Origin: a virus
DNA: 52,766 nt
Virus record (IMG/VR): IMGVR_UViG_3300030110_002022
Location: 1-52,766 of that record
Strand: one strand, 5' to 3'
Made by a program: the position numbers and the translations under genes. Below, piece by piece: positions 1 to 52,733 of the stretch. The first letter of the stretch is position 1. Each line of letters begins with the position of its first letter. The notes beneath the pieces were generated by a model. That model saw nothing but the letters and a program-made list of their open reading frames with translations. It made no database searches and was not told the DNA's origin.

Positions 1-35
1 CGAGCTGGAAACAAGAAGGTGTGTTAAAAAAAGGT

Positions 36-66
36 TTGACTTATCCGATAAATATAGTATTATAAT
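36..66 (+). promoter_or_regulatory. Early promoter P1 with embedded palindrome
   Basis: TTGACT at 36-41 is a good -35. TATTAT at 58-63 (16-bp spacer) or TATAAT at 61-66 (19-bp spacer) can be the -10. The spacer begins with TTATCCGATAAA (41-52), in which TTATC and GATAA are inverted repeats around one C. The same arrangement occurs at 738, 1717 and 52262, always before a short gene. An operator or activator site overlapping the promoter is inferred. Confidence 0.7.
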
Positions 67-72
67 TATGAG

Positions 73-129
73 AGAGTAACTATGAAAACAAATGTAGCTT
101 TAAAACGTAGTGGACTGTTACTCTGGTAA
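73..129 (+). promoter_or_regulatory. 5' leader with hairpin and possible 15-residue leader peptide
   Basis: AGAGTAAC (73-80) can pair with GTTACTCT (117-124). Between and beyond them lies an ATG-started mini-frame at 82-129 (MKTNVALKRSGLLLW) with a purine-rich stretch just upstream. It sits between promoter P1 and the first gene, so it could be an attenuator or leader peptide. Frames this short occur by chance, so only the hairpin is reasonably supported. Confidence 0.25.
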
Positions 130-159
130 CTCTCTTATTTTAACTAACGGAGAATAAAA

Positions 160-357
160 ATGGACGATTTAACAAAACTAATGCTAATGGATCCGCATTT
201 TATACAAGCAATGAAAGACCTAGAAGACAGAGGCTTTATAAAAGTAAAAGGAGAAGAGGGCATTGAAATAGTAGACAAAGAAGGACTCCAAGAATATTAC
301 GACAATTTTGGAATAGCTCCTGATCATTTCCCAAAGGTCGTAAAAAGCGATGTATAA
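160..357 (+). CDS. Small early protein of unknown function (65 aa)
   Basis: First clear gene behind promoter P1. Its Shine-Dalgarno lies in the leader AACGGAG, about 8 nt before the ATG, a leader repeated before the genes at 795, 1785, 43543 and 52470. The protein is acidic, with no membrane segment and no motif I recognise. The next small gene starts inside its last codons, so the two are probably translated together. Position and promoter class suggest an early host-takeover or regulatory role; that is inference. Confidence 0.7.
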   Translation: MDDLTKLMLMDPHFIQAMKDLEDRGFIKVKGEEGIEIVDKEGLQEYYDNFGIAPDHFPKVVKSDV

Positions 358-511
358 ATATTACGTTATACACAATGTTCATGGTAAGAAAACTATTGAA
401 GCTAGTAACACCTATCAAGCATGTAAAAAATTTGCTGAATATTTTGGATTAAGGAGCACGTCAGGTGTCAATGCGTACTTGTTGACAAAGACCCATGTAG
501 CAGATTTTTAA
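350..511 (+). CDS. Small early protein of unknown function (53 aa)
   Basis: ATG at 350 overlaps the end of the preceding gene by 8 nt, typical of translational coupling. The product begins MYKYYVIHNVHGKK and ends in KTHVADF; it is basic, with aromatic residues near the N-terminus and a segment (about residues 19-33) that could form a helix. No family was recognised. The frame closes just before the GC-rich repeat island that starts at 521, which supports it as the last gene of the first early unit. Confidence 0.55.
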   Translation: MYKYYVIHNVHGKKTIEASNTYQACKKFAEYFGLRSTSGVNAYLLTKTHVADF

Positions 512-520
512 ATAATTTAG

Positions 521-689
521 TTCCCGTTCCCGTTCCCGTTTGGGTATGGGTTCGGGGTTTAACTTTTGTAGGAGGCTGCTGGCCCGCCAGGGACGCATGG
601 GAAAACTTCTTCCCGTTCCCGTTTGGAAGCCAAGTTACCTCTACTTTTTTGTAATGATTGTTTTCCAGCCCGGCGGCACGGGAAATGCG
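521..689. repeat. GC-rich island A: TTCCCG tandem repeats and hairpins
   Basis: This gap of about 280 nt carries three tandem TTCCCG hexamers (521-538) and two more (610-621), with a complementary ACGGGAAATG near 678-687. At 576-593 is CTGCTGGCCCGCCAGGGA, whose CTGGC/GCCAG arms (579-583, 586-590) form a hairpin; the same 18-mer with a different 2-nt loop recurs at 1534-1551. It is far more GC-rich than the flanking genes, and no gene is evident. Replication origin, recombination site or structured RNA are all possible. Confidence 0.7.
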
Positions 690-737
690 AAAGTTCATTA
701 ACTTGCGGTTTGGTCATAACACATAGAAAAAAATCAT

Positions 738-765
738 TTGCATTATCCGATAAATATATTATAAT
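738..765 (+). promoter_or_regulatory. Early promoter P2 with embedded palindrome
   Basis: TTGCAT (738-743), a 16-bp spacer and TATAAT (760-765) form a good promoter. The spacer contains TTATCCGATAAA at 743-754, placed exactly as in P1, P3 and P4. The transcript would lead into AACTAACTAACGGAGG and the gene at 795. Confidence 0.75.
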
Positions 766-794
766 AATATTTTAACTAACTAACGGAGGATAAA

Positions 795-1391
795 ATGGGA
801 TTTGATTTATACGGACAAAATCCAAAATTAAAAAGCGAAGAGCCTTATATTGATTGGACTAAAAACCCAACAAAAGAAGAGAAGGAAGAATACTTCAAAG
901 CTAGAGAAAAATTTGAAGAAGAAAATCCAGGTCATTATTTTAGAAATAATGTATGGTGGTGGAGACCATTAGCAAATTATGTTTTGCAGTTAATGGAAAA
1001 TGAGTTTACAGGAAAGGAGCAAGCTAGTTGGCATCATAATGACGGCTATGAAGTAAGCGAAGAACAAGCTAAAAAAATTGCTGATAAACTTGAGAAAGAA
1101 CTAAAAACAAACAGAGTAAAAACTATAGAAGAGTTTTACAAAGTAAAGATGAAGAAAGCAGAAGAAGAAAACAAAATTGTAGGACAAAAACACGAAGAAC
1201 TAAAAAAAATCGTTGCAGAAAAAACTGGAAAAAATAATTTAGTTCCTAGAGAATATCCAGAACCATTTAATAGTCAATGGAATGATATTCAAAAGCAGTT
1301 TAATTACGATTCTTCCTATCCATTTTCAGAAGAAAATGTAATTGACTTTATGAAGTTTTGTCGTTCATCTGGAGGATTTCAGATTTGCTAA
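795..1391 (+). CDS. Conserved early phage protein of unknown function (198 aa)
   Basis: Starts at ATG 795 behind promoter P2, with the strong leader ACGGAGGATAAA. The N-terminus MGFDLYGQNPK and the block RNNVWWWRPL (about residues 51-60) match, from memory, a family of conserved hypothetical proteins found in many phages and some plasmids. Residues 90-145 are highly charged and probably helical, possibly coiled coil. No catalytic motif is visible. The early promoter argues for a role soon after infection. Family membership is fairly secure, function is unknown. Confidence 0.8.
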   Translation: MGFDLYGQNPKLKSEEPYIDWTKNPTKEEKEEYFKAREKFEEENPGHYFRNNVWWWRPLANYVLQLMENEFTGKEQASWHHNDGYEVSEEQAKKIADKLEKELKTNRVKTIEEFYKVKMKKAEEENKIVGQKHEELKKIVAEKTGKNNLVPREYPEPFNSQWNDIQKQFNYDSSYPFSEENVIDFMKFCRSSGGFQIC

Positions 1392-1474
1392 TGTTTGCAA
1401 CAGACATTTTTAGTCTATTTCTAGAGGGAGTGTTTTATTTAGCACTCTCTCTTTGTATTTTATATTGGACATAA
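1391..1474 (+). CDS. Possible 27-residue membrane microprotein
   Basis: ATG 1391 overlaps the TAA of the preceding gene (TAATG). The product, beginning MFATDIFSLFLEGVFYLALS, is almost wholly hydrophobic and could span the membrane once. Against it, the stretch 1423-1461 is a strong hairpin with a T-rich tail that would terminate transcription inside the frame. It may be a chance open frame across a terminator. Confidence 0.3.
   Translation: MFATDIFSLFLEGVFYLALSLCILYWT
1423..1461 (+). terminator. Probable intrinsic terminator after the 795 gene
   Basis: AGAGGGAGTG (1423-1432) pairs with CACTCTCTCT (1443-1452) with one G-U wobble around a 10-nt loop, followed by TTGTATTTT. It lies just after the stop of the 198-residue gene and before the second repeat island. 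Confidence 0.5.
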
Positions 1475-1483
1475 TTAATAACC

Positions 1484-1716
1484 TTTCCCGTTCCCGTTCC
1501 CATTTCATTTGGTAGCAGGTCACATTATTGCTGCTGCTGGCTGGCCAGGGATCGCACGGGACGGGAAATGACTTCCCGTTTGTTCCCGTTCCCGATACAA
1601 CTTTTCGAAGCAATTTAGATTAACTGGCTGTGCGATCCAGCCAGAAAAAAATGGTGATGGAATTTTTTTTGTTTCAAAAAAAAATAAAAAAAAATGCAAT
1701 TAATGTAAAATAAAAC
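1484..1716. repeat. GC-rich island B plus AT-rich stretch (possible origin)
   Basis: The 310-nt gap 1475-1784 has no clear gene. TTCCCG copies lie at 1485, 1491, 1573, 1583 and 1589. TTTCCCG (1484-1490) and TCCCG (1492-1496) can pair with CGGGAAA (1562-1568) and CGGGA (1557-1561), enclosing the hairpin 18-mer at 1534-1551. A second hairpin, CTGGCTG/CAGCCAG, lies at 1624-1644. From about 1660 the sequence becomes runs of T and A. Iteron-like repeats, cruciforms and an AT-rich tract next to early promoters would suit a replication origin, but this is inference. Confidence 0.65.
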
Positions 1717-1744
1717 TTGATTATCCGATAAACTACTATATACT
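1717..1744 (+). promoter_or_regulatory. Early promoter P3 with embedded palindrome
   Basis: TTGATT (1717-1722), a 16-bp spacer and TATACT (1739-1744) form the promoter. TTATCCGATAAA occupies 1721-1732. It precedes the three-gene unit starting at 1785. Confidence 0.75.
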
Positions 1745-1784
1745 TATATATAAGTTTAATCATCAAACACTAACGGAGGTAAAT

Positions 1785-2120
1785 ATGAAAAAACTTAAAT
1801 TAAAAAGTGAGCAACTAACAAAAGAAGAAATTATGTTTAATTTTGTTATTGCTGATTCCAACTATAAGAAGTTTAAAAAAGAAAGAAATAAACTTCTACC
1901 ATTTGTAAAAGAGATATTAGAAGATACAGACAACAACACTTTTACATTTAAACTTCTACCACATATAAAAGGTTTTATTCAAAAGGTTTCAGTATTTGCT
2001 GAAAGATTTGATACAACTACCTTTAGAAAGGAAAAACCTTCTATTGCTGAACAGTATATGATAGAAAGAGAATCAACAACAATCATAACTGATAATGCTA
2101 AAATCGAGGTGCAAAAATGA
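1785..2120 (+). CDS. Early protein of unknown function (111 aa)
   Basis: First gene of a three-gene early unit behind promoter P3, with leader AACGGAGGTAAAT before the ATG. The product is lysine-rich and looks mostly helical. Residues 20-45 hold a basic cluster (KKFKKERNK) followed by hydrophobic residues. No known domain was recognised. Its stop overlaps the start of the next gene by 4 nt (ATGA), so the two are co-translated. Confidence 0.75.
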   Translation: MKKLKLKSEQLTKEEIMFNFVIADSNYKKFKKERNKLLPFVKEILEDTDNNTFTFKLLPHIKGFIQKVSVFAERFDTTTFRKEKPSIAEQYMIERESTTIITDNAKIEVQK

Positions 2121-2362
2121 GTGTACTAGATTTAATAAATAATACTAACCTTGTTACTCCTTCGAGAGTAACAGAGTTAGCTAATTCAATTACAGATGAG
2201 CAAAGAACACAAATCAATTATCAATTAATCTGTAGTGCATTAGAAAAAGCAATTGTTGAGATTTATGCTCAATATCCTAATAATCAAGTTACTAATGATT
2301 TACGAAATAAAGTAAACAACTACCTTGCTGAATTGCAAGTAGTATTAAACGGAGGTAATTAA
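2117..2362 (+). CDS. Early protein of unknown function (81 aa)
   Basis: Begins in an ATGA overlap with the previous gene; GAGGTG upstream acts as ribosome binding site. The protein is helical in appearance, glutamine- and asparagine-rich, with heptad-like spacing of hydrophobic residues between about 20 and 75. No motif points to a function. It is the middle gene of the P3 unit. Confidence 0.7.
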   Translation: MSVLDLINNTNLVTPSRVTELANSITDEQRTQINYQLICSALEKAIVEIYAQYPNNQVTNDLRNKVNNYLAELQVVLNGGN

Positions 2363-2363
2363 T

Positions 2364-2606
2364 ATGTATACAAAAGAGGATTTAAAAAGAGATGTTGAAG
2401 ACCTTAAGAAAGCTAAAGACGAATTAGTTAATAAGATAGACGATTATAAAAAAGAGTTAGACGAATTTTTATTAGCAATAAAAGTTAAAAAGGTTAGACA
2501 ACATTATGATTATTTAATTAAATCTAAAGCTCAGAAATGGGCTTTAGATTACTGGTATGGAGTGTATAAAAAATTACGTAGTAGGCAGGTTATGAACAGG
2601 CTTTAA
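2364..2606 (+). CDS. Coiled-coil early protein (80 aa)
   Basis: Follows the previous gene by one base, with ACGGAGG about 13 nt before the ATG. Residues 4-55 are nearly all Lys, Asp, Glu and Leu/Ile in a heptad-like pattern (DLKRDVEDLKKAKDELV), so a coiled coil is likely. The C-terminal third is basic and aromatic. Its place two steps before the large terminase would fit a small terminase subunit, but no helix-turn-helix is visible and I do not assign that. Confidence 0.7.
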   Translation: MYTKEDLKRDVEDLKKAKDELVNKIDDYKKELDEFLLAIKVKKVRQHYDYLIKSKAQKWALDYWYGVYKKLRSRQVMNRL

Positions 2607-2635
2607 CAAGGCTCAAAAGCCATTTAAACGGCGAT

Positions 2636-2699
2636 TTGCCCCGTTCTCGTTCCCTTTGGGCAAGTCCCTCTGTCGCCCCGACAGAGGGGCAAGGGGCAA
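2636..2699. repeat. Structured GC-rich element C upstream of terminase
   Basis: CCCTCTGTCG (2666-2675), loop CCC, and CGACAGAGGG (2679-2688) form a perfect 10-bp hairpin. TTGCCCC (2636-2642) can also pair with either of two direct GGGGCAA copies (2686-2692, 2693-2699). No T tract follows, so it is not a simple terminator. Lying directly before the terminase gene, it could be a packaging recognition site or a processing structure in the mRNA. Confidence 0.6.
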
Positions 2700-2752
2700 G
2701 GTAAATACATGTAGAACTTTGCAAAACGTCTAGACTGGTGTATAAATACATT

Positions 2753-4228
2753 ATGAAGACAGATTTGCTTACCACAGAAAAACTGAGGCTCGAAGTAGAA
2801 AAGAGATGGATTGAGCACGTTAAATTATGTCAGGATAATTTTTTATATTTTGTTAAAGAGGTATGGCCTGACTTTATATATCGTAAAACAAATGATCCGA
2901 AAAAACTTGGACATCATCAAATTATAGCAAATCAGTTCACTAACATAGCTGCTCAAAGAAAAGGGAGGCTCATTATAAACATGCCCCCAAGACATACTAA
3001 ATCTGAATTTGCATCTGTGTACTTTCCTGCTTGGATTATTGGAAGGTTCCCTAAATTAAAAATTATGCAAGTTTCTCATAACACAGAACTTGCAGTAAGG
3101 TTCGGAAGTAAGGTTCGTAACATTATTGATTCGCCAGAGTATAAACAAATTTTTGGAGACGTTAGACTTCGTGAGGACTCCAAAGCAAAAGGACGATGGG
3201 AAACTAATCAAGGTGGAGAATATTATGCAGCAGGTGTTGGTGCGTCAATCACGGGTCGTGGTGCAGATTTACTGATCATTGATGATCCACACACGGAACA
3301 AGATTCGATGTCTGATGTTGCTATGGAACGTGCATATGAATGGTACACTTCAGGACCACGACAAAGATTACAACCTGGAGGCTCAATATTATTAGTAATG
3401 ACAAGATGGGCAGAAGATGATTTGACTGGCAGATTGTTAAAGGCTCAAACAGAACCAAAAGCTGACAATTGGAAACAAATATCTTTTCCTGCGATCCTCG
3501 ATTCAGGGAACCCAGTATGGCCTGAGTATTGGAACCTAGAAGAATTAGAAAAGATCAAAGCTTCTGTACCGATTCGTAATTGGTCAGCTCAGTATATGCA
3601 AGAACCAACTTCTGATGAAGGAGCTATAATAAAACGTGAATGGTGGCAACCTTGGGATGGGAATGGGGTCCCCAATTTAATACATGTCATACAAAGTTAT
3701 GATACAGCATTTAGTAAAAAAGAAACTGCTGACTATAGTGCGATAACAACATGGGGTATTTTTTATCCTGAAGAAGGAGGACCACCTCAAGTTATATTGT
3801 TAGATGCCATACGAGGTAAATATGATTTTCCAGAACTCAAAGTTGTAGCATTAGATGCGTATAGATACTGGGAACCTGAAACAATAGTTATTGAACAAAA
3901 AGCAAGTGGAGAACCATTGACTCAAGAATTTAGAAGAATGGGTATACCTGTTGTACCCTTTACACCAACTAAAGGTAATGATAAACACACAAGAGTAAAT
4001 GCTGTTGCACCAATATTTGAAAGTGGTTCTGTGTGGTTTCCTTATGGAGAAAAATTTGCAGAAGATGTTATTGATGAATGTGCTGCTTTTCCAAACGGAG
4101 CTAACGATGATTATGTAGATAGCATGTCCCAAGCTATGTTACGATATAGACAAGGGCATTTTGTGGAGTTATACTCAGATTATGTCGATAACGAGGATAG
4201 ACCTCCGAAAGAATATAACTATTATTGA
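2753..4228 (+). CDS. terL: Terminase large subunit (TerL)
   Basis: The motor that cuts and pumps DNA into proheads through the portal. The ATPase half has a Walker-A-like NMPPRHTKSE near residues 76-85 and a Walker B LLIIDDPHTE. The C-terminal half has an RNase H-fold nuclease with acidic positions in SYDTAFSKKETADYS and NDDYVDSM. At 491 residues, the length is normal for the family. ATG 2753 was chosen; GTG 2738, in frame, would add MYKYI, and neither has a clear ribosome binding site. A small basic gene follows after 7 nt, then the long 993-residue gene. The assignment is secure. Confidence 0.95.
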   Translation: MKTDLLTTEKLRLEVEKRWIEHVKLCQDNFLYFVKEVWPDFIYRKTNDPKKLGHHQIIANQFTNIAAQRKGRLIINMPPRHTKSEFASVYFPAWIIGRFPKLKIMQVSHNTELAVRFGSKVRNIIDSPEYKQIFGDVRLREDSKAKGRWETNQGGEYYAAGVGASITGRGADLLIIDDPHTEQDSMSDVAMERAYEWYTSGPRQRLQPGGSILLVMTRWAEDDLTGRLLKAQTEPKADNWKQISFPAILDSGNPVWPEYWNLEELEKIKASVPIRNWSAQYMQEPTSDEGAIIKREWWQPWDGNGVPNLIHVIQSYDTAFSKKETADYSAITTWGIFYPEEGGPPQVILLDAIRGKYDFPELKVVALDAYRYWEPETIVIEQKASGEPLTQEFRRMGIPVVPFTPTKGNDKHTRVNAVAPIFESGSVWFPYGEKFAEDVIDECAAFPNGANDDYVDSMSQAMLRYRQGHFVELYSDYVDNEDRPPKEYNYY

Positions 4229-4352: not shown

Positions 4353-7333
4353 TGGCATACGAAGAAGATTCAGGTATAGGCTTAGGAACAGTTGCTACAG
4401 TAGGAGCAGGTATTGCTGGTCTTGTGTTTCGTAAAAACATTGGTAAGTTTGTAAAAGATTATGTTACCGAAGCTAAACGAGTCACGGACCCTGATGCTTT
4501 ACTAAAGAAACAAAAAGCAGTAGTAGAGCAACAACAAAAAGATGCAGAATATGGTGGTAGAACATTTGGTACGGAGATTATAGAGCAAGATAAAGGTATC
4601 GCTTCTGTAAGACCTTCCCAAGAATTAGTTCCTATTGTTGATAAAGTAGAGGAGATAAAAACTCCTAAACCATTAACACCAGGACAGATTGCACAAAAAG
4701 AAGCAAGAGCTGTTTTACAAAAAGAAAATGAATTTTTACAAGAACAAAAGAAAATAACTAGAGAACAACCTTTCACATTAGGAGGTGCTGCATTTAGAGG
4801 AGATATGTATGGAGTAGGTTCTCCTTTATACGATGCGGTTGTTAGAAAATCTCCTTCTGCTAAACCTATGCCTGTAAAATACTGGGAAGATTTTTTTAAG
4901 AAAAAACTTGATGTAGAATTTGTTCCGTTTAGTAGAAAAGTTGAGACAGTTACAAAAGATGAAATAGCTGATGCTAATATTGCTAAGTATAATAAAAAAG
5001 GTCAGTTAGTAGATGGTTATTTAAAATACATAAAAGATATAAATGCAGAAAGTTCTTTTGATAATGAGGTTCGTATATCTCCTATTACTATAATGAGTTT
5101 AATTAAAAACGCACCTGCTAATAATTTAAGAGTAATCGAACATGATTCTTTATTTTATAAAAAAGATACAGATAATTTATTAAGTTTTGGTGAATCTGTT
5201 TATAAATCACTAACTGGTGTGTTACCAAATAATTTTCAAAACAAAAGTATAAAACAAATAGATGCTTTACTTGCTAGAACACCAGAAGGTGGTGACAGAA
5301 ATCTTTTATTAGATTTACGAAATATTAAAGTTAAATTAGAACAAGGTAAAGGATCTGTATCTCATTTAAGAAGTGATGGTTTAAAAAGAGGACAAAACCC
5401 TAACAATGCTCTTTTTGCAAATCCTTTTGAAGGCTCTCATCAAACCTCAGAATCTTTTAAAGATTTAATGTTTAGAATCGGTGCGAGAAGAACAAATAAT
5501 GAGTTAAGTGCAACAGATCAAAAAATAAGTTCTATTCTGGATAAACCTGTAAGTTCATTAAACTATAAAGGTGGTTATAATGTTAAACCTGATATTACAA
5601 TTAGAGAAGCTCTTGATGGTTTAAGAAATACAAGTTTAAGAGCCAGAGATACTATGGAACAAATTTTATCAAGGTCAGGTTCTAGTGCAAATGTAAACGC
5701 AAAAAAAAATGTTTTTGATATGACTAAATCTTACAAAGAGGTAAGTAAGTTAATGAATAAATTACCTCATGTGAAATATCCTCAATACGAAGCTTACAGA
5801 ATATATGGTCCAGAAGATTATTTTGAATCTGTAATTTATGTAGATCCAAAAATTATTGATGGGGTAAGAAAAAATGTTCCTAATTTTAGGATTACACCTT
5901 CTCATTATCATAACGATATATTTGGTAAATCTATTGAAGGACAAGTATTACATCTTAGAGGTGGTGTAAGAGAAGTTGATGGAGGAGGTAAAGCTTTATC
6001 AATTGATGAAATGCAAAATGATATTAACCAAAGAGTACAAAAAGCTATTAAAGATAAAAAAGTAAAAATGGCTAGAGATAAATTAGATGAAGAGTTAGAG
6101 TTTTTAAAAGATACTCCAGAAGTAAGAAGAGCAGTTGCGACATGGAAAAGAACTAAAGCAGCAAAATATTTTTCAGATCGTCAACAAAATATGGATAATG
6201 TAGATGACGCTCAAATGTTTAGATATTATAAAGATGCTATGTATAGAGATTTGACACCAAAAGATATAGGTGAATTAGTTTCAAAAGAATCTCGTATACC
6301 AAGTATAGGTAAAAAATATTTATTTGATGAAGCTGCGGAAAATAAAATTCGTATGAATCAATTTAATCTTGATGCTGTAGGGACAGATTTATACAGAGAT
6401 AGATTACTTACAATATCTGATGAGATGTCTTCGATTACCGATAAAGGTGCTCGTATGACAAGAAAAGATATAGAGAGACTTAAAAATTTACAATTAAAAC
6501 ATGAAGAAATATCTGAATTAATACCAACTGTTTCAAATAGACCTGCAAGTACACATCCTCATATGCCTTTTTACAAAAAAGAACAATGGGGTGCATTGGG
6601 TATGAAATACGCTATTCGTAAAGCTGCAAAAGATGATTTAGACTGGGTAACAATAAACCCTTATGAAGTGGTTCATCATAGAGAAAGTGCAAGACTTGGT
6701 AACTTAGAGTTTTATGGTAACTATAGAGGTGGTGGAGATATTAAAAAAAGAACTGATATTAATATTGCTCAACGTGAAGTTGATTATGTAAAAAAACTTG
6801 CAGAAAAAAAAGGCTTGGCTCCTGGTAGTCCTGAGTATTTAAGAATGTTAGGAGAAATATCAAGAAGAAAAACATTAAGAACTAAACCAGATTTTGTAGA
6901 GTTAAATACTTCTGGCTCAGCTACAGGTAGAAAAAAAGCAGAAGCCAAAGGTGCAACTATACCAAATTTTATGAAAAAGTTTGCTGAGGATTATGGAACA
7001 GAAGTTAAATCAATTAGAGTAGCTAAATCAGATCCAAAGAAAAATATTAAAATAGTAAGAGATATAGATGTAATAGATGCAGACACAGGTAAACCAAAAA
7101 AATTTGTAGAACATATTGCTGCTTTCACAGAAGATGAGTACGATGCTTTAAAATTAAATGGTTCTATCCCTACATTTGCAAGTGGGGGTAGAGTTCTAAA
7201 AAGAAAAGCAGGAGAATATTATAGAGAAGATTATTACGACACATTTGCTTTAAAAATAAAGCCAGAGTTTAAAGATATACCTATTAAAGGATATAGAAAA
7301 GGTGGTCTAGCACAAAACATATTTAAATGGTAA
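4352..7333 (+). CDS. Very large putative virion protein (993 aa)
   Basis: Starts in a TAATG overlap between terminase and portal genes. The N-terminus has a glycine-rich hydrophobic stretch (VATVGAGIAGLVF) that could insert in a membrane. The middle is long, charged and mostly helical with no enzyme motif I can name. The C-terminus carries two short GG motifs, TFASGGRV and YRKGGLAQN, of a kind found in other basic proteins here. The size and the position between packaging genes suggest an internal or ejected virion protein; a polyvalent effector protein is the alternative. Function unassigned. Confidence 0.75.
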   Translation: MAYEEDSGIGLGTVATVGAGIAGLVFRKNIGKFVKDYVTEAKRVTDPDALLKKQKAVVEQQQKDAEYGGRTFGTEIIEQDKGIASVRPSQELVPIVDKVEEIKTPKPLTPGQIAQKEARAVLQKENEFLQEQKKITREQPFTLGGAAFRGDMYGVGSPLYDAVVRKSPSAKPMPVKYWEDFFKKKLDVEFVPFSRKVETVTKDEIADANIAKYNKKGQLVDGYLKYIKDINAESSFDNEVRISPITIMSLIKNAPANNLRVIEHDSLFYKKDTDNLLSFGESVYKSLTGVLPNNFQNKSIKQIDALLARTPEGGDRNLLLDLRNIKVKLEQGKGSVSHLRSDGLKRGQNPNNALFANPFEGSHQTSESFKDLMFRIGARRTNNELSATDQKISSILDKPVSSLNYKGGYNVKPDITIREALDGLRNTSLRARDTMEQILSRSGSSANVNAKKNVFDMTKSYKEVSKLMNKLPHVKYPQYEAYRIYGPEDYFESVIYVDPKIIDGVRKNVPNFRITPSHYHNDIFGKSIEGQVLHLRGGVREVDGGGKALSIDEMQNDINQRVQKAIKDKKVKMARDKLDEELEFLKDTPEVRRAVATWKRTKAAKYFSDRQQNMDNVDDAQMFRYYKDAMYRDLTPKDIGELVSKESRIPSIGKKYLFDEAAENKIRMNQFNLDAVGTDLYRDRLLTISDEMSSITDKGARMTRKDIERLKNLQLKHEEISELIPTVSNRPASTHPHMPFYKKEQWGALGMKYAIRKAAKDDLDWVTINPYEVVHHRESARLGNLEFYGNYRGGGDIKKRTDINIAQREVDYVKKLAEKKGLAPGSPEYLRMLGEISRRKTLRTKPDFVELNTSGSATGRKKAEAKGATIPNFMKKFAEDYGTEVKSIRVAKSDPKKNIKIVRDIDVIDADTGKPKKFVEHIAAFTEDEYDALKLNGSIPTFASGGRVLKRKAGEYYREDYYDTFALKIKPEFKDIPIKGYRKGGLAQNIFKW

Positions 7334-29075: not shown

Positions 29076-29117
29076 TTTTTTTGTTGAAGTTGTCTTTGTT
29101 TTATAGGATAATTTGAT

Positions 29118-29312
29118 ATGAAAAAAATACAATGTGAAACAAAAGAAGTATACAGAAACAAAAAAAATAATATAAAATATGCTTCGCAAAAAGACGCTCA
29201 ACATGATGTTGATAACCCTAACACTAATACTACACAAGAAGATATTGTAACAGATGTTACTGTTATAGTTCCTCCAGAAGCATTAAAATTAGTAAGTGGT
29301 ACAAAGAAATAA
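29118..29312 (+). CDS. Small protein of unknown function (64 aa)
   Basis: Begins after a 42-nt gap with TAGGATAATTTG upstream as weak ribosome binding site. Basic N-terminus (MKKIQCETKEVYRNKKNN), Asn/Asp/Thr-rich middle and a short C-terminal hydrophobic part. The stop overlaps the glycosyltransferase start (TAATG). No motif recognised. Confidence 0.55.
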   Translation: MKKIQCETKEVYRNKKNNIKYASQKDAQHDVDNPNTNTTQEDIVTDVTVIVPPEALKLVSGTKK

Positions 29313-41362: not shown

Positions 41363-42101
41363 TTTTATAATTTCTGATTTTAGCATTGTACCTAAATATA
41401 AATACAAAGCTTATTCTAGAAATGATGAAAAAATTAGAACCTATAATGTAAATGGTAAAAAACACCCATCAGTCACTACAATATTGTCAGCAACACAAAG
41501 TGAAGAAAAAAAGAAGTCGTTAGAGTCTTGGAGAAAACGTGTTGGAATAGAACAAGCTACACGTATCACGATTGACGCAGCCAGACGTGGAACTGAAATG
41601 CACTTGGTTTTAGAAAAGTATTGTCAAGCTATACCTTACCTTAACCTTACACCACAAGGTAATCAATCACGATTAATGGCTCATAGAGTTGTAGATAATT
41701 TAAGTAAATTAAAAGAGGTTTGGGGTAGTGAAGTTCATTTGATGTATGAAGATTATTGCCCATCATTATATCCTGATCCAAAAAAAATGGCTTGGGCGGG
41801 TATGACAGATTTAGTAGGTTTGTATGATGAAAAACCTACTATCATAGATTTTAAACAATCAAATAGAATTAAAAGGGAAGAGTGGATAGAAGATTACTAT
41901 TATCAAATAGCAGCATATTCTATTGCTCATAAAGCTTACTATGGAGAAATCACACAAGGTTTAATTTGTATTTGTACGAGAAATTATGAGTATCAAGAAT
42001 TTAAAATGGATGAAAAGAAATTACTTGAGTATGAAAATAAATGGTTTGATAGAGCATATGATTATTATAAAAAATTAAGTACCTCTTCTCCTAAAGTTTG
42101 A
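41337..42101 (+). CDS. PD-(D/E)XK exonuclease, RecB/Cas4-like (254 aa)
   Basis: Degrades or processes DNA ends during replication or recombination. Motifs in order: RRGTEMHLVLEKY (His89), WAGMTDLVG (Asp158), PTIIDFKQS (Asp171, Lys173), and DYYYQIAAYSIAH (Gln190-x2-Ala-Tyr), the set of RecB-type nucleases. ATG 41337, inside the end of the previous gene, gives a compact protein; longer frames upstream encode sequence antisense in character. The 3' end converges with the minus-strand helicase, overlapping by 37 nt. Confidence 0.85.
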   Translation: MQIKRKKNSFIISDFSIVPKYKYKAYSRNDEKIRTYNVNGKKHPSVTTILSATQSEEKKKSLESWRKRVGIEQATRITIDAARRGTEMHLVLEKYCQAIPYLNLTPQGNQSRLMAHRVVDNLSKLKEVWGSEVHLMYEDYCPSLYPDPKKMAWAGMTDLVGLYDEKPTIIDFKQSNRIKREEWIEDYYYQIAAYSIAHKAYYGEITQGLICICTRNYEYQEFKMDEKKLLEYENKWFDRAYDYYKKLSTSSPKV

Positions 42102-43474
42102 GCTGACATTTTTTTCTTTTCATTCAAAGCCTTTATAATAAATTCATCAATAGTTCCTTTTGTAACTAAATCAATGTAAGTTACACTTTTCTTTTGACCA
42201 TGTCTGTGAGCTCTATCTTCTGATTGTTCTCTAAGTGTAAGATCATAACTATTTGAAAAATATATTACAGTAGTAGCAGCAGTAAGATTTAAACCATAAC
42301 CACCAGTAGATGGATTACCTACAAAAAATCTTGTTTTACTATCTTCTTGAAAAGATTCCACAGCTTGGTCTCTATCTTTTACATTTACAGCACCATAAAT
42401 AGCTACAGTATTATCGAAAGGATATTTCTTTTTTAAAACTTGTATTATCTGTTCTATGTTATGGATATAGTTTGCCCATATAATTACCTTACCCTCTGTC
42501 TCATCTATGATATTACAAAGTTCTGTCATTTTAGGAGTATCAAATGATTCTCTTTGACCTTTATCGGAAACGAAGAAGCCACATGTAACTTGATGTAACC
42601 TTAAAAGTTCAGTAAGTTTATTTGTATAACTTGATTCTTTATCTTGAAAAATAGCTCTGGCATATTTTTTTAAACTTGTGTAACACTCCAACTGTTCCTT
42701 AGACATTCCTAAAAATCTTTTTGTAAATACTTTTGGTGGTAAGTCAAAACAATCTTCTTTTTTTACTCTAAATGAAAACCCTTTTATCTTACCTTCTAAT
42801 TCAGCAAGATTAGTAAAGTACATTGGTATCATAATTTGTCTATTACCTTCATTACTTAAAGGTCTCATAGCACAATACCTAGCACGAAAAGCATAATAAC
42901 TTTTAAATCCTAATAGACCTGGTTTTAAAAACTCACATTGACTGTATAAATCTAATGGACTTTTTGTTGTAGGAGATCCTGTCATACCTCTTTTATATTT
43001 TACATCTGAACTTAACTTAACAATGTTTCTAGTTCTTTTAGCTTTATGATTTTTAATTGTTGTACATTCGTCAACGACCATAAACATTTTATCTTTACAT
43101 TTATCAATTAATTTTTTGGCAACTTTAACACCACTTGCATGAGATAAAGCCTCTACATTCATAACATACCAATTAATAGCATTTTCAAATTTATGATCAA
43201 AAGAATCTCTTTTAAATAAATATTTAATATTTTTAGAAGAACTGTGTATATCAATTTCTTTTAGCCAATTATGTGTAATACTATTTGGTACTATAACAAA
43301 AACTGTATCTATTTTTTTCTGGTTATATAAATAAACAGCATTATCAATAGCAACTTTTGTTTTACCAGTGCCCATACCCATAAGGTATAAAAAATACTCT
43401 TTTTCTGCACCTTTGATGAGTGCTTGTCTTTGATGTTCAAATGGTTTGGTTTTATATATATGTGACATATCCAT
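42065..43474 (-). CDS. SNF2/DEAD-type superfamily 2 helicase (469 aa)
   Basis: The only large gene on the minus strand. It couples ATP hydrolysis to movement on DNA. FEHQRQALIKGAEKEYF, GMGTGKTKVA (Walker A), MVVDECTTIKNH (motif II, DECT instead of DEAH), RGMTGSPTTKSPLDLYSQ (motif III), GGYGLNLTAATTVIYFSNSY and EQSEDRAHRHGQKKSVTYID (motifs V and VI) are all intact. ATG 43474 (or 43468) lies just after a -10-like TAGAAT, so the mRNA may be leaderless; an in-frame start at 43528 is possible. It may remodel forks or work with the nearby nuclease. Confidence 0.9.
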   Translation of the reverse strand: MDMSHIYKTKPFEHQRQALIKGAEKEYFLYLMGMGTGKTKVAIDNAVYLYNQKKIDTVFVIVPNSITHNWLKEIDIHSSSKNIKYLFKRDSFDHKFENAINWYVMNVEALSHASGVKVAKKLIDKCKDKMFMVVDECTTIKNHKAKRTRNIVKLSSDVKYKRGMTGSPTTKSPLDLYSQCEFLKPGLLGFKSYYAFRARYCAMRPLSNEGNRQIMIPMYFTNLAELEGKIKGFSFRVKKEDCFDLPPKVFTKRFLGMSKEQLECYTSLKKYARAIFQDKESSYTNKLTELLRLHQVTCGFFVSDKGQRESFDTPKMTELCNIIDETEGKVIIWANYIHNIEQIIQVLKKKYPFDNTVAIYGAVNVKDRDQAVESFQEDSKTRFFVGNPSTGGYGLNLTAATTVIYFSNSYDLTLREQSEDRAHRHGQKKSVTYIDLVTKGTIDEFIIKALNEKKKMSAQTLGEEVLNFL

Positions 43475-43475
43475 A

Positions 43476-43504
43476 ATTCTAGGATTTTTTTGTTGACATT
43501 GCAA
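43476..43504 (-). promoter_or_regulatory. Minus-strand promoter of the SNF2 gene, overlapping a plus -35
   Basis: On the minus strand TTGCAA (43504-43499), a 17-bp spacer and TAGAAT (43481-43476). On the plus strand TTGACA (43493-43498) lies in the same region and could serve the gene at 43543 with a poor -10 further down. Divergent, overlapping promoters would compete. Confidence 0.5.
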
Positions 43505-43542
43505 GAAATAAAAATTAATGTATACCATTAACGGAGGAAAAC

Positions 43543-52261: not shown

Positions 52262-52290
52262 TTGTATTATCCGATAAAATACCCTATATT
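52262..52290 (+). promoter_or_regulatory. Early promoter P4 with embedded palindrome
   Basis: TTGTAT (52262-52267), 17-bp spacer, TATATT (52285-52290). TTATCCGATAAA is at 52267-52278. Same design as P1-P3 at the left end of the window. Confidence 0.75.
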
Positions 52291-52383: not shown

Positions 52384-52469
52384 CTTTGGGAATACATGCT
52401 CAGTGGGCAGGACTTTTTTTTAACATACTAAAGGCACAACTGCCCACATAACATAACGGAGAAAGAAAC

Positions 52470-52733
52470 ATGAAACAGAAAAGAAAAATAAGATCATTTA
52501 AAAACTCAGACTGGCTGATGATAACACCACAACATGTAAAGTTACACATCATGAGAATAACAACTTCTTACTGGTATAATCCTAAAAACAAGATTACAAT
52601 CAGAATACCATTGGAGGAAACACATCACATCATGATTGGTAAACATGGTTACAAAGCAGCTGATGAATTATTAATGACAGAAGAGTCTAAGAAAAAGAAC
52701 TGGTCTCTACTAAAACCATTAAAGGTGGCGTAA
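52470..52733 (+). CDS. Early protein of unknown function (87 aa)
   Basis: Leader AACGGAGAAAGAAAC precedes the ATG, as in the left-end early genes. Basic protein with WLMITPQHVKLHIMRITTSY and IRIPLEETHHIMIGKHGYKA; several His residues but no clear zinc site. No family recognised. The next frame starts in its stop (TAATG). Confidence 0.65.
   Translation: MKQKRKIRSFKNSDWLMITPQHVKLHIMRITTSYWYNPKNKITIRIPLEETHHIMIGKHGYKAADELLMTEESKKKNWSLLKPLKVA

Follow-up and report, generated by a model that had tools for sequence, protein, structure and literature searches.

Four small early genes in a marine phage genome are preceded by promoters that hold the same short palindrome between their −35 and −10 hexamers, which raises the question of whether a regulator reads this site and, if so, whether that regulator belongs to the host or to the phage. 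The stretch analyzed here (the window) comprises 52,766 nucleotides, positions 1 to 52,766 of IMG/VR record IMGVR_UViG_3300030110_002022. Megablast and gene content place it near the Pelagibacter phages HTVC023P and 023Pt_psg01, and its genes mark the phage as related to the lytic HTVC023P-type pelagiphages. Because of this relationship to HTVC023P, the host is presumably a SAR11 bacterium. The HTVC023P phage type has been described as lytic (PMC12753301). Neither integrase (PF00589) nor HTH_3 (PF01381) was matched in five records that carry the palindrome (G000, G001, G003, G004, G184), and T7-type RNA polymerase (PF00940) had no match over the cut-off in nine genomes; these absences agree with the lytic description (PMC12753301). 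One sub-threshold PF00940 match falls in a frame with six stops, and the idea that the four promoters serve a phage single-subunit RNA polymerase was rejected on the result from the nine genomes. For HTVC027P, all early-expressed genes have been reported to be of unknown function (PMC12753301).

Four early promoters with a shared dyad

Exactly four copies of TTATCCGATAA are present in the window, all on the plus strand (41–51, 743–753, 1721–1731 and 52267–52277), at the positions given in an earlier note on this DNA. The note had seen no further copy in the window; an exact scan for TTATCSGATAA agrees and extends this to the whole 53,758-base record. The mean chance expectation is 0.05 copies, and none of 100 dinucleotide shuffles reached four. 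The geometry that the note described also holds for every copy: each dyad sits in the spacer of a sigma70-like promoter whose hexamers are 16 or 17 bp apart, with a small gene behind (65, 198, 111 and 87 aa). Random copies inside genes, which the note had named as evidence against a regulatory site, are absent among the exact copies. Promoter-like hexamers alone are not enriched in positions 1–3000 (10 found, 11 expected); the nonchance element is the dyad plus its fixed place, not the promoter hexamers of an AT-rich stretch. A looser search with the 12-mer at up to two mismatches gave 20 matches against 7.0 expected, although eight of the 20 are the four palindromes counted on both strands. 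One single-mismatch copy, TTATCCTATAA, lies on the minus strand at 29100–29111, in a 42-base gap that separates two late genes and precedes the gene at 29118; this variant recurs at the promoters of a 94-aa gene (g94) in three relatives (L393, L399 and L403).

Promoter 1 (36–63, plus strand; TTGACT-16-TATTAT, dyad at 41–51) was located by motif and promoter scan, and the same promoter and dyad recur in L012/L388, L182, L401 and L402. Behind it lie a 65-aa gene, g65 (160–357, plus strand), considered below as a candidate repressor on the strength of a weak CRP-type half winged helix and its co-occurrence with the dyad, and a second open reading frame of 53 aa (350–511, plus strand). Promoter 2 (737–765, plus strand; TTTGCA-17-TATAAT, dyad at 743–753), found by the same scans, precedes a 198-aa open reading frame (795–1391, plus strand) that relatives without the dyad possess too. 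Promoter 3 (1717–1744, plus strand; TTGATT-16-TATACT, dyad at 1721–1731) has counterparts with the dyad at the equivalent promoter of L182, L177 and L009. It leads into a cassette (1785–2606, plus strand) of three open reading frames, of 111 aa (1785–2120), 81 aa (2117–2362) and 80 aa (2364–2606). Promoter 4 (52262–52290, plus strand; TTGTAT-17-TATATT, dyad at 52267–52277), its hexamers read by eye, has the same site in L028/L392 and stands before an 87-aa open reading frame for a basic protein (52470–52733, plus strand).

Other features surround these cassettes. Long stem-loops are predicted in the leaders behind promoter 1 (68–138), where the structure overlaps a possible 15-codon mini-ORF (MKTNVALKRSGLLLW), and behind promoter 4 (52400–52457), with z-scores of −1.8 and −1.6, respectively. 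Stems with other letters are kept in relatives (L182, 1586–1652; L017, 1560–1640; z-score of −3.4 for each). Between the early cassettes lie GC-rich blocks (516–690, 1484–1600 and 2636–2700) that contain GTTCCC repeats as well as inverted repeats, two of them directly upstream of promoters 2 and 3. Relatives also have such blocks, which in places extend a small nuclease-like ORF into a PVPVPV tail. In relatives, the nuclease-like gene and g94 stand between a PAPS reductase-like gene and g65; because both are absent from the record that contains the window, its ends (1 and 53758) may lack about 3 kb.

Conservation and the operator reading

The scan of related phages that the earlier note had called for shows that the dyad stays at early promoters in about two dozen relatives. 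Terminase and DNA polymerase searches gave 160 loci from IMG/VR. Among 37 records scanned whole, seven had exact copies, whereas a reversed-pattern control was near zero. Six of these seven are HTVC023P-type relatives, each with g65; G031, the remaining one, came to light through its motif and has one copy and no g65. There are 1 to 5 copies per phage, at promoters only. On a terminase tree the dyad-bearing phages group into a single clade (98% support). Only outside this clade is the motif missing, and the promoters there differ as well, so the loss of the motif from otherwise preserved promoters, a further outcome that the note had listed against its proposal, was not seen. A blind dyad search, run on promoter regions from 16 genomes, yielded this dyad alone, in G003 and G004, under a strict filter that missed the window's own promoters.

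The placement of the dyad is informative. In 44 of 54 distinct contexts it lies in the spacer and follows the −35 immediately; in the other 10 it overlaps the −10 end or the predicted start point, just before the ribosome-binding site. Invariance at C5, C/G6 and G7 in these contexts proves nothing, because the collecting script itself fixed those letters. In a gene-anchored comparison, the dyad upstream of the 198-aa gene holds its place in the promoter across the clade with 0 to 3 mismatches (most commonly as TTATCCGATAT) while neighboring letters drift; in L010 the dyad is split there by an insertion. At g65's own promoter both positions, spacer and start point, occur in different relatives. 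These patterns strongly support a putative regulator-binding site. Since occupation of either position would block RNA polymerase, the best reading is a repressor operator: we consider it probable, from sequence and its conservation, that a trans-acting repressor, most likely encoded by the phage, uses TTATCSGATAA as its operator and shuts off a small set of host-sigma70 early promoters in one HTVC023P-type clade.

Could the dyad instead recruit an activator? MerR-type activators bind the −35/−10 spacer, and a phage protein that recruits or remodels RNA polymerase from the spacer or start in a MerR-like manner would account for the fixed register of the spacer dyad in 44 of the 54 contexts. 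The spacers here are 16 to 17 bp, however, rather than the 19 to 20 bp of MerR promoters, and because the hexamers are near consensus at this spacing, no activator should be needed. In the 10 contexts at the −10 end or start point an activator would stand in the way of transcription, and the proteins scanned included none of MerR type. Use of both positions suits a steric repressor and is hard to square with activation, which we regard as very improbable. Alternatively, there may be no dedicated regulator: a single promoter cassette, duplicated inside the genome and passed down one clade, could carry the dyad as a frozen component. Copies 1 and 2 are indeed 83% alike over 41 nt, the cassettes have the ribosome-binding string CTAACGGAG in common, and all copies fall in one clade. 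Yet promoters that are otherwise dissimilar hold the dyad in two different places with respect to the −10, the 198-aa gene has retained it in its promoter despite the drift of adjacent letters, and some g65 and g94 promoters have it exclusively at the start point, which random copying leaves unexplained; we think this account improbable.

The earlier note had offered a repressor site and a host-factor site as alternatives and suggested that the phage may read a host signal. The first part has held up, in that the dyad behaves as a regulator-type site; the second has not. Control of phage early promoters by host factors is well known, and no phage regulator is proven here, both of which favor a SAR11 transcription factor through which the phage would sense host physiology. 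The promoter-plus-dyad pattern, however, was found in none of 397 SAR11 genomes in scans for the exact motif. The bare motif occurs 0 to 5 times per genome in 147 SAR11 genomes (91 of the 147 have at least one copy), against a reversed control of usually 0 to 3, roughly the number to be expected in DNA so rich in AT, and long open frames contain 32 of the 34 copies inspected. Given the absence of the promoter pattern and bare copies close to chance in number and placed in open frames, a host regulon is unlikely, and we give the host-signal explanation little credence. What still fits best is the note's other suggestion, a regulator encoded by one of the phage's own small early genes, with g65 behind promoter 1 as the candidate rather than a proven repressor.

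For the phage-encoded repressor we infer protein binding, repression and timing as follows. The early cassettes, each with its own promoter, operator and ribosome-binding string, would be fired by host RNA polymerase soon after entry. As the repressor, probably dimeric, accumulates, it would sit on the dyad over the spacer or over the −10 and start point and exclude RNA polymerase. Once the dyads of all cassettes are covered, early expression would end and middle and late genes would take over. If the repressor is g65, its own promoter would be repressed too.

Two observations lie outside the clade. An unrelated phage contig (L176), which of the window proteins tested matches only the helicase (42065–43528), has a single promoter-like copy at 6755–6765, TTGCA-TTATCCGATAA-GTATAT-TATAAT, and no g65. 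Four operator-free relatives (L145, L087, L144 and L005) share a different string, (T)ATGGGATA, upstream of their homologue of the 198-aa gene and near the early-promoter start point. In two of the four it takes the form TTATC-N7-GATAA, and it is possibly another clade's control site.

The candidate regulator g65

No PHROG is assigned to g65, and 50,697 annotated phage records contain no match to it. Against Pfam HTH_Crp_2 it scores an E value of 1.4e-4 and 22.2 bits, below the curated cut-off of 27, over positions 38–70 of 70; a complete domain over the cut-off was thus not found, only half of the profile being covered. The same weak half-domain match is seen in 14 of 14 aligned homologues. 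An AlphaFold model (pLDDT 74) predicts a helix-helix-hairpin-helix arrangement whose core fits the Cmr protein of Mycobacterium tuberculosis at the recognition helix and wing to 1.0 Å over 34 residues, but with an E value of 0.56.

A profile scan of viral contigs recovered 30 g65 loci, some of which belong to near-identical phages. Those at 67% identity or more number 23, and every one of them has the operator, with 0 to 1 mismatches, 27 to 310 bp upstream; many also have extra operators at the genes of 198 and 111 aa and at promoters far upstream. No operator lies near g65 in the seven diverged loci (47% to 61% identity). No replacement operator was found by eye in four genomes with diverged g65 (L404, L411, L057 and L058), and the dyad search among such genomes covered only G022, the record behind L058. 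At the level of genomes, g65 is present in seven of seven that bear the operator and in two of 17 others, where it takes the diverged form.

This association has a limit: because the operator-bearing phages form a single clade, any clade-specific gene co-occurs with the operator, and a tree test of whether g65 and operator change together rests on one change only. Indeed g94, the 94-aa gene upstream of g65 in relatives, which matches phrog_9974 and before which the record of the window ends, co-occurs with the operator as well as g65 does. A fold search with the g94 model gave no useful match. Both proteins are acidic, g65 with a pI of 4.5. The in-clade fragment L009 has three degenerate operators and g94, with another gene at the usual place of g65, although g65 may lie outside this contig of only 9.3 kb. 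Two other early products were dropped as regulators: the 87-aa product behind operator 4, since G004 has the operator and not the gene, and the 53-aa product behind operator 1, since several operator-bearing genomes lack its gene, including the near-complete G001.

We therefore hold g65 to be the best single candidate for the repressor, but a tentative one with the odds somewhat against it, because of the single clade, the equal co-occurrence of g94, the L009 fragment and its acidity. The partial Pfam match below the cut-off, the E value of the fold match and the copy in L176 without g65 also count against it. The further proposal that g65 represents a winged-helix repressor of minimal, half size with no relatives described so far, which regulates its own synthesis and shuts the early promoters of a lytic clade, is more speculative still and rather doubtful. 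If true, it would make g65 the first transcription switch to be recognized in phages of the HTVC023P type.

Significance and comparison with known systems

No description of this operator sequence and its host group was found in the literature searched; the string TTATCCGATAA appeared in one paper, on C. difficile SigD. The operator would offer a first way into transcription control in a lytic group of marine phages that is very abundant and whose hosts are the ocean's most abundant bacteria. As a shared site it names the early promoters of the clade, predicts which genes of unknown function are co-regulated and offers a bait for the regulator. By its genes, the phage belongs to the same group as the cultured pelagiphages HTVC023P and HTVC027P; unlike it, HTVC023P and 023Pt_psg01 have neither operator nor g65.

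Phage proteins that repress early promoters are already known. In cluster A mycobacteriophages, which are temperate, the phage-encoded immunity repressor binds stoperators that are asymmetric, numerous and genome-wide and that also stop elongation (PMC9283540, PMC6550527). Stoperators resemble the present operator in being one short site repeated in a phage genome, including at early promoters, and are likewise served, as proposed here, by a phage-encoded protein. The dyad does not share their asymmetry or their many copies across the genome: it is a palindrome with 1 to 5 copies, at promoters only, in phages free of integrase. The recognition helix and wing of CRP/FNR winged-helix regulators have a possible, weak counterpart in g65; in contrast to these regulators, g65 has no nucleotide-binding domain and covers half of the profile, and we take the operator not to be a CRP/FNR-type site. 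A lambda-type CI/Cro switch was rejected, as the five operator-bearing records have no HTH_3 repressor or integrase. The operators of CI and Cro are nonetheless similar to the present ones in being short dyads that overlap early promoters, consistent with steric repression; whereas the lambda sites are clustered between divergent promoters, those of the window's phage are single sites spread over several cassettes.
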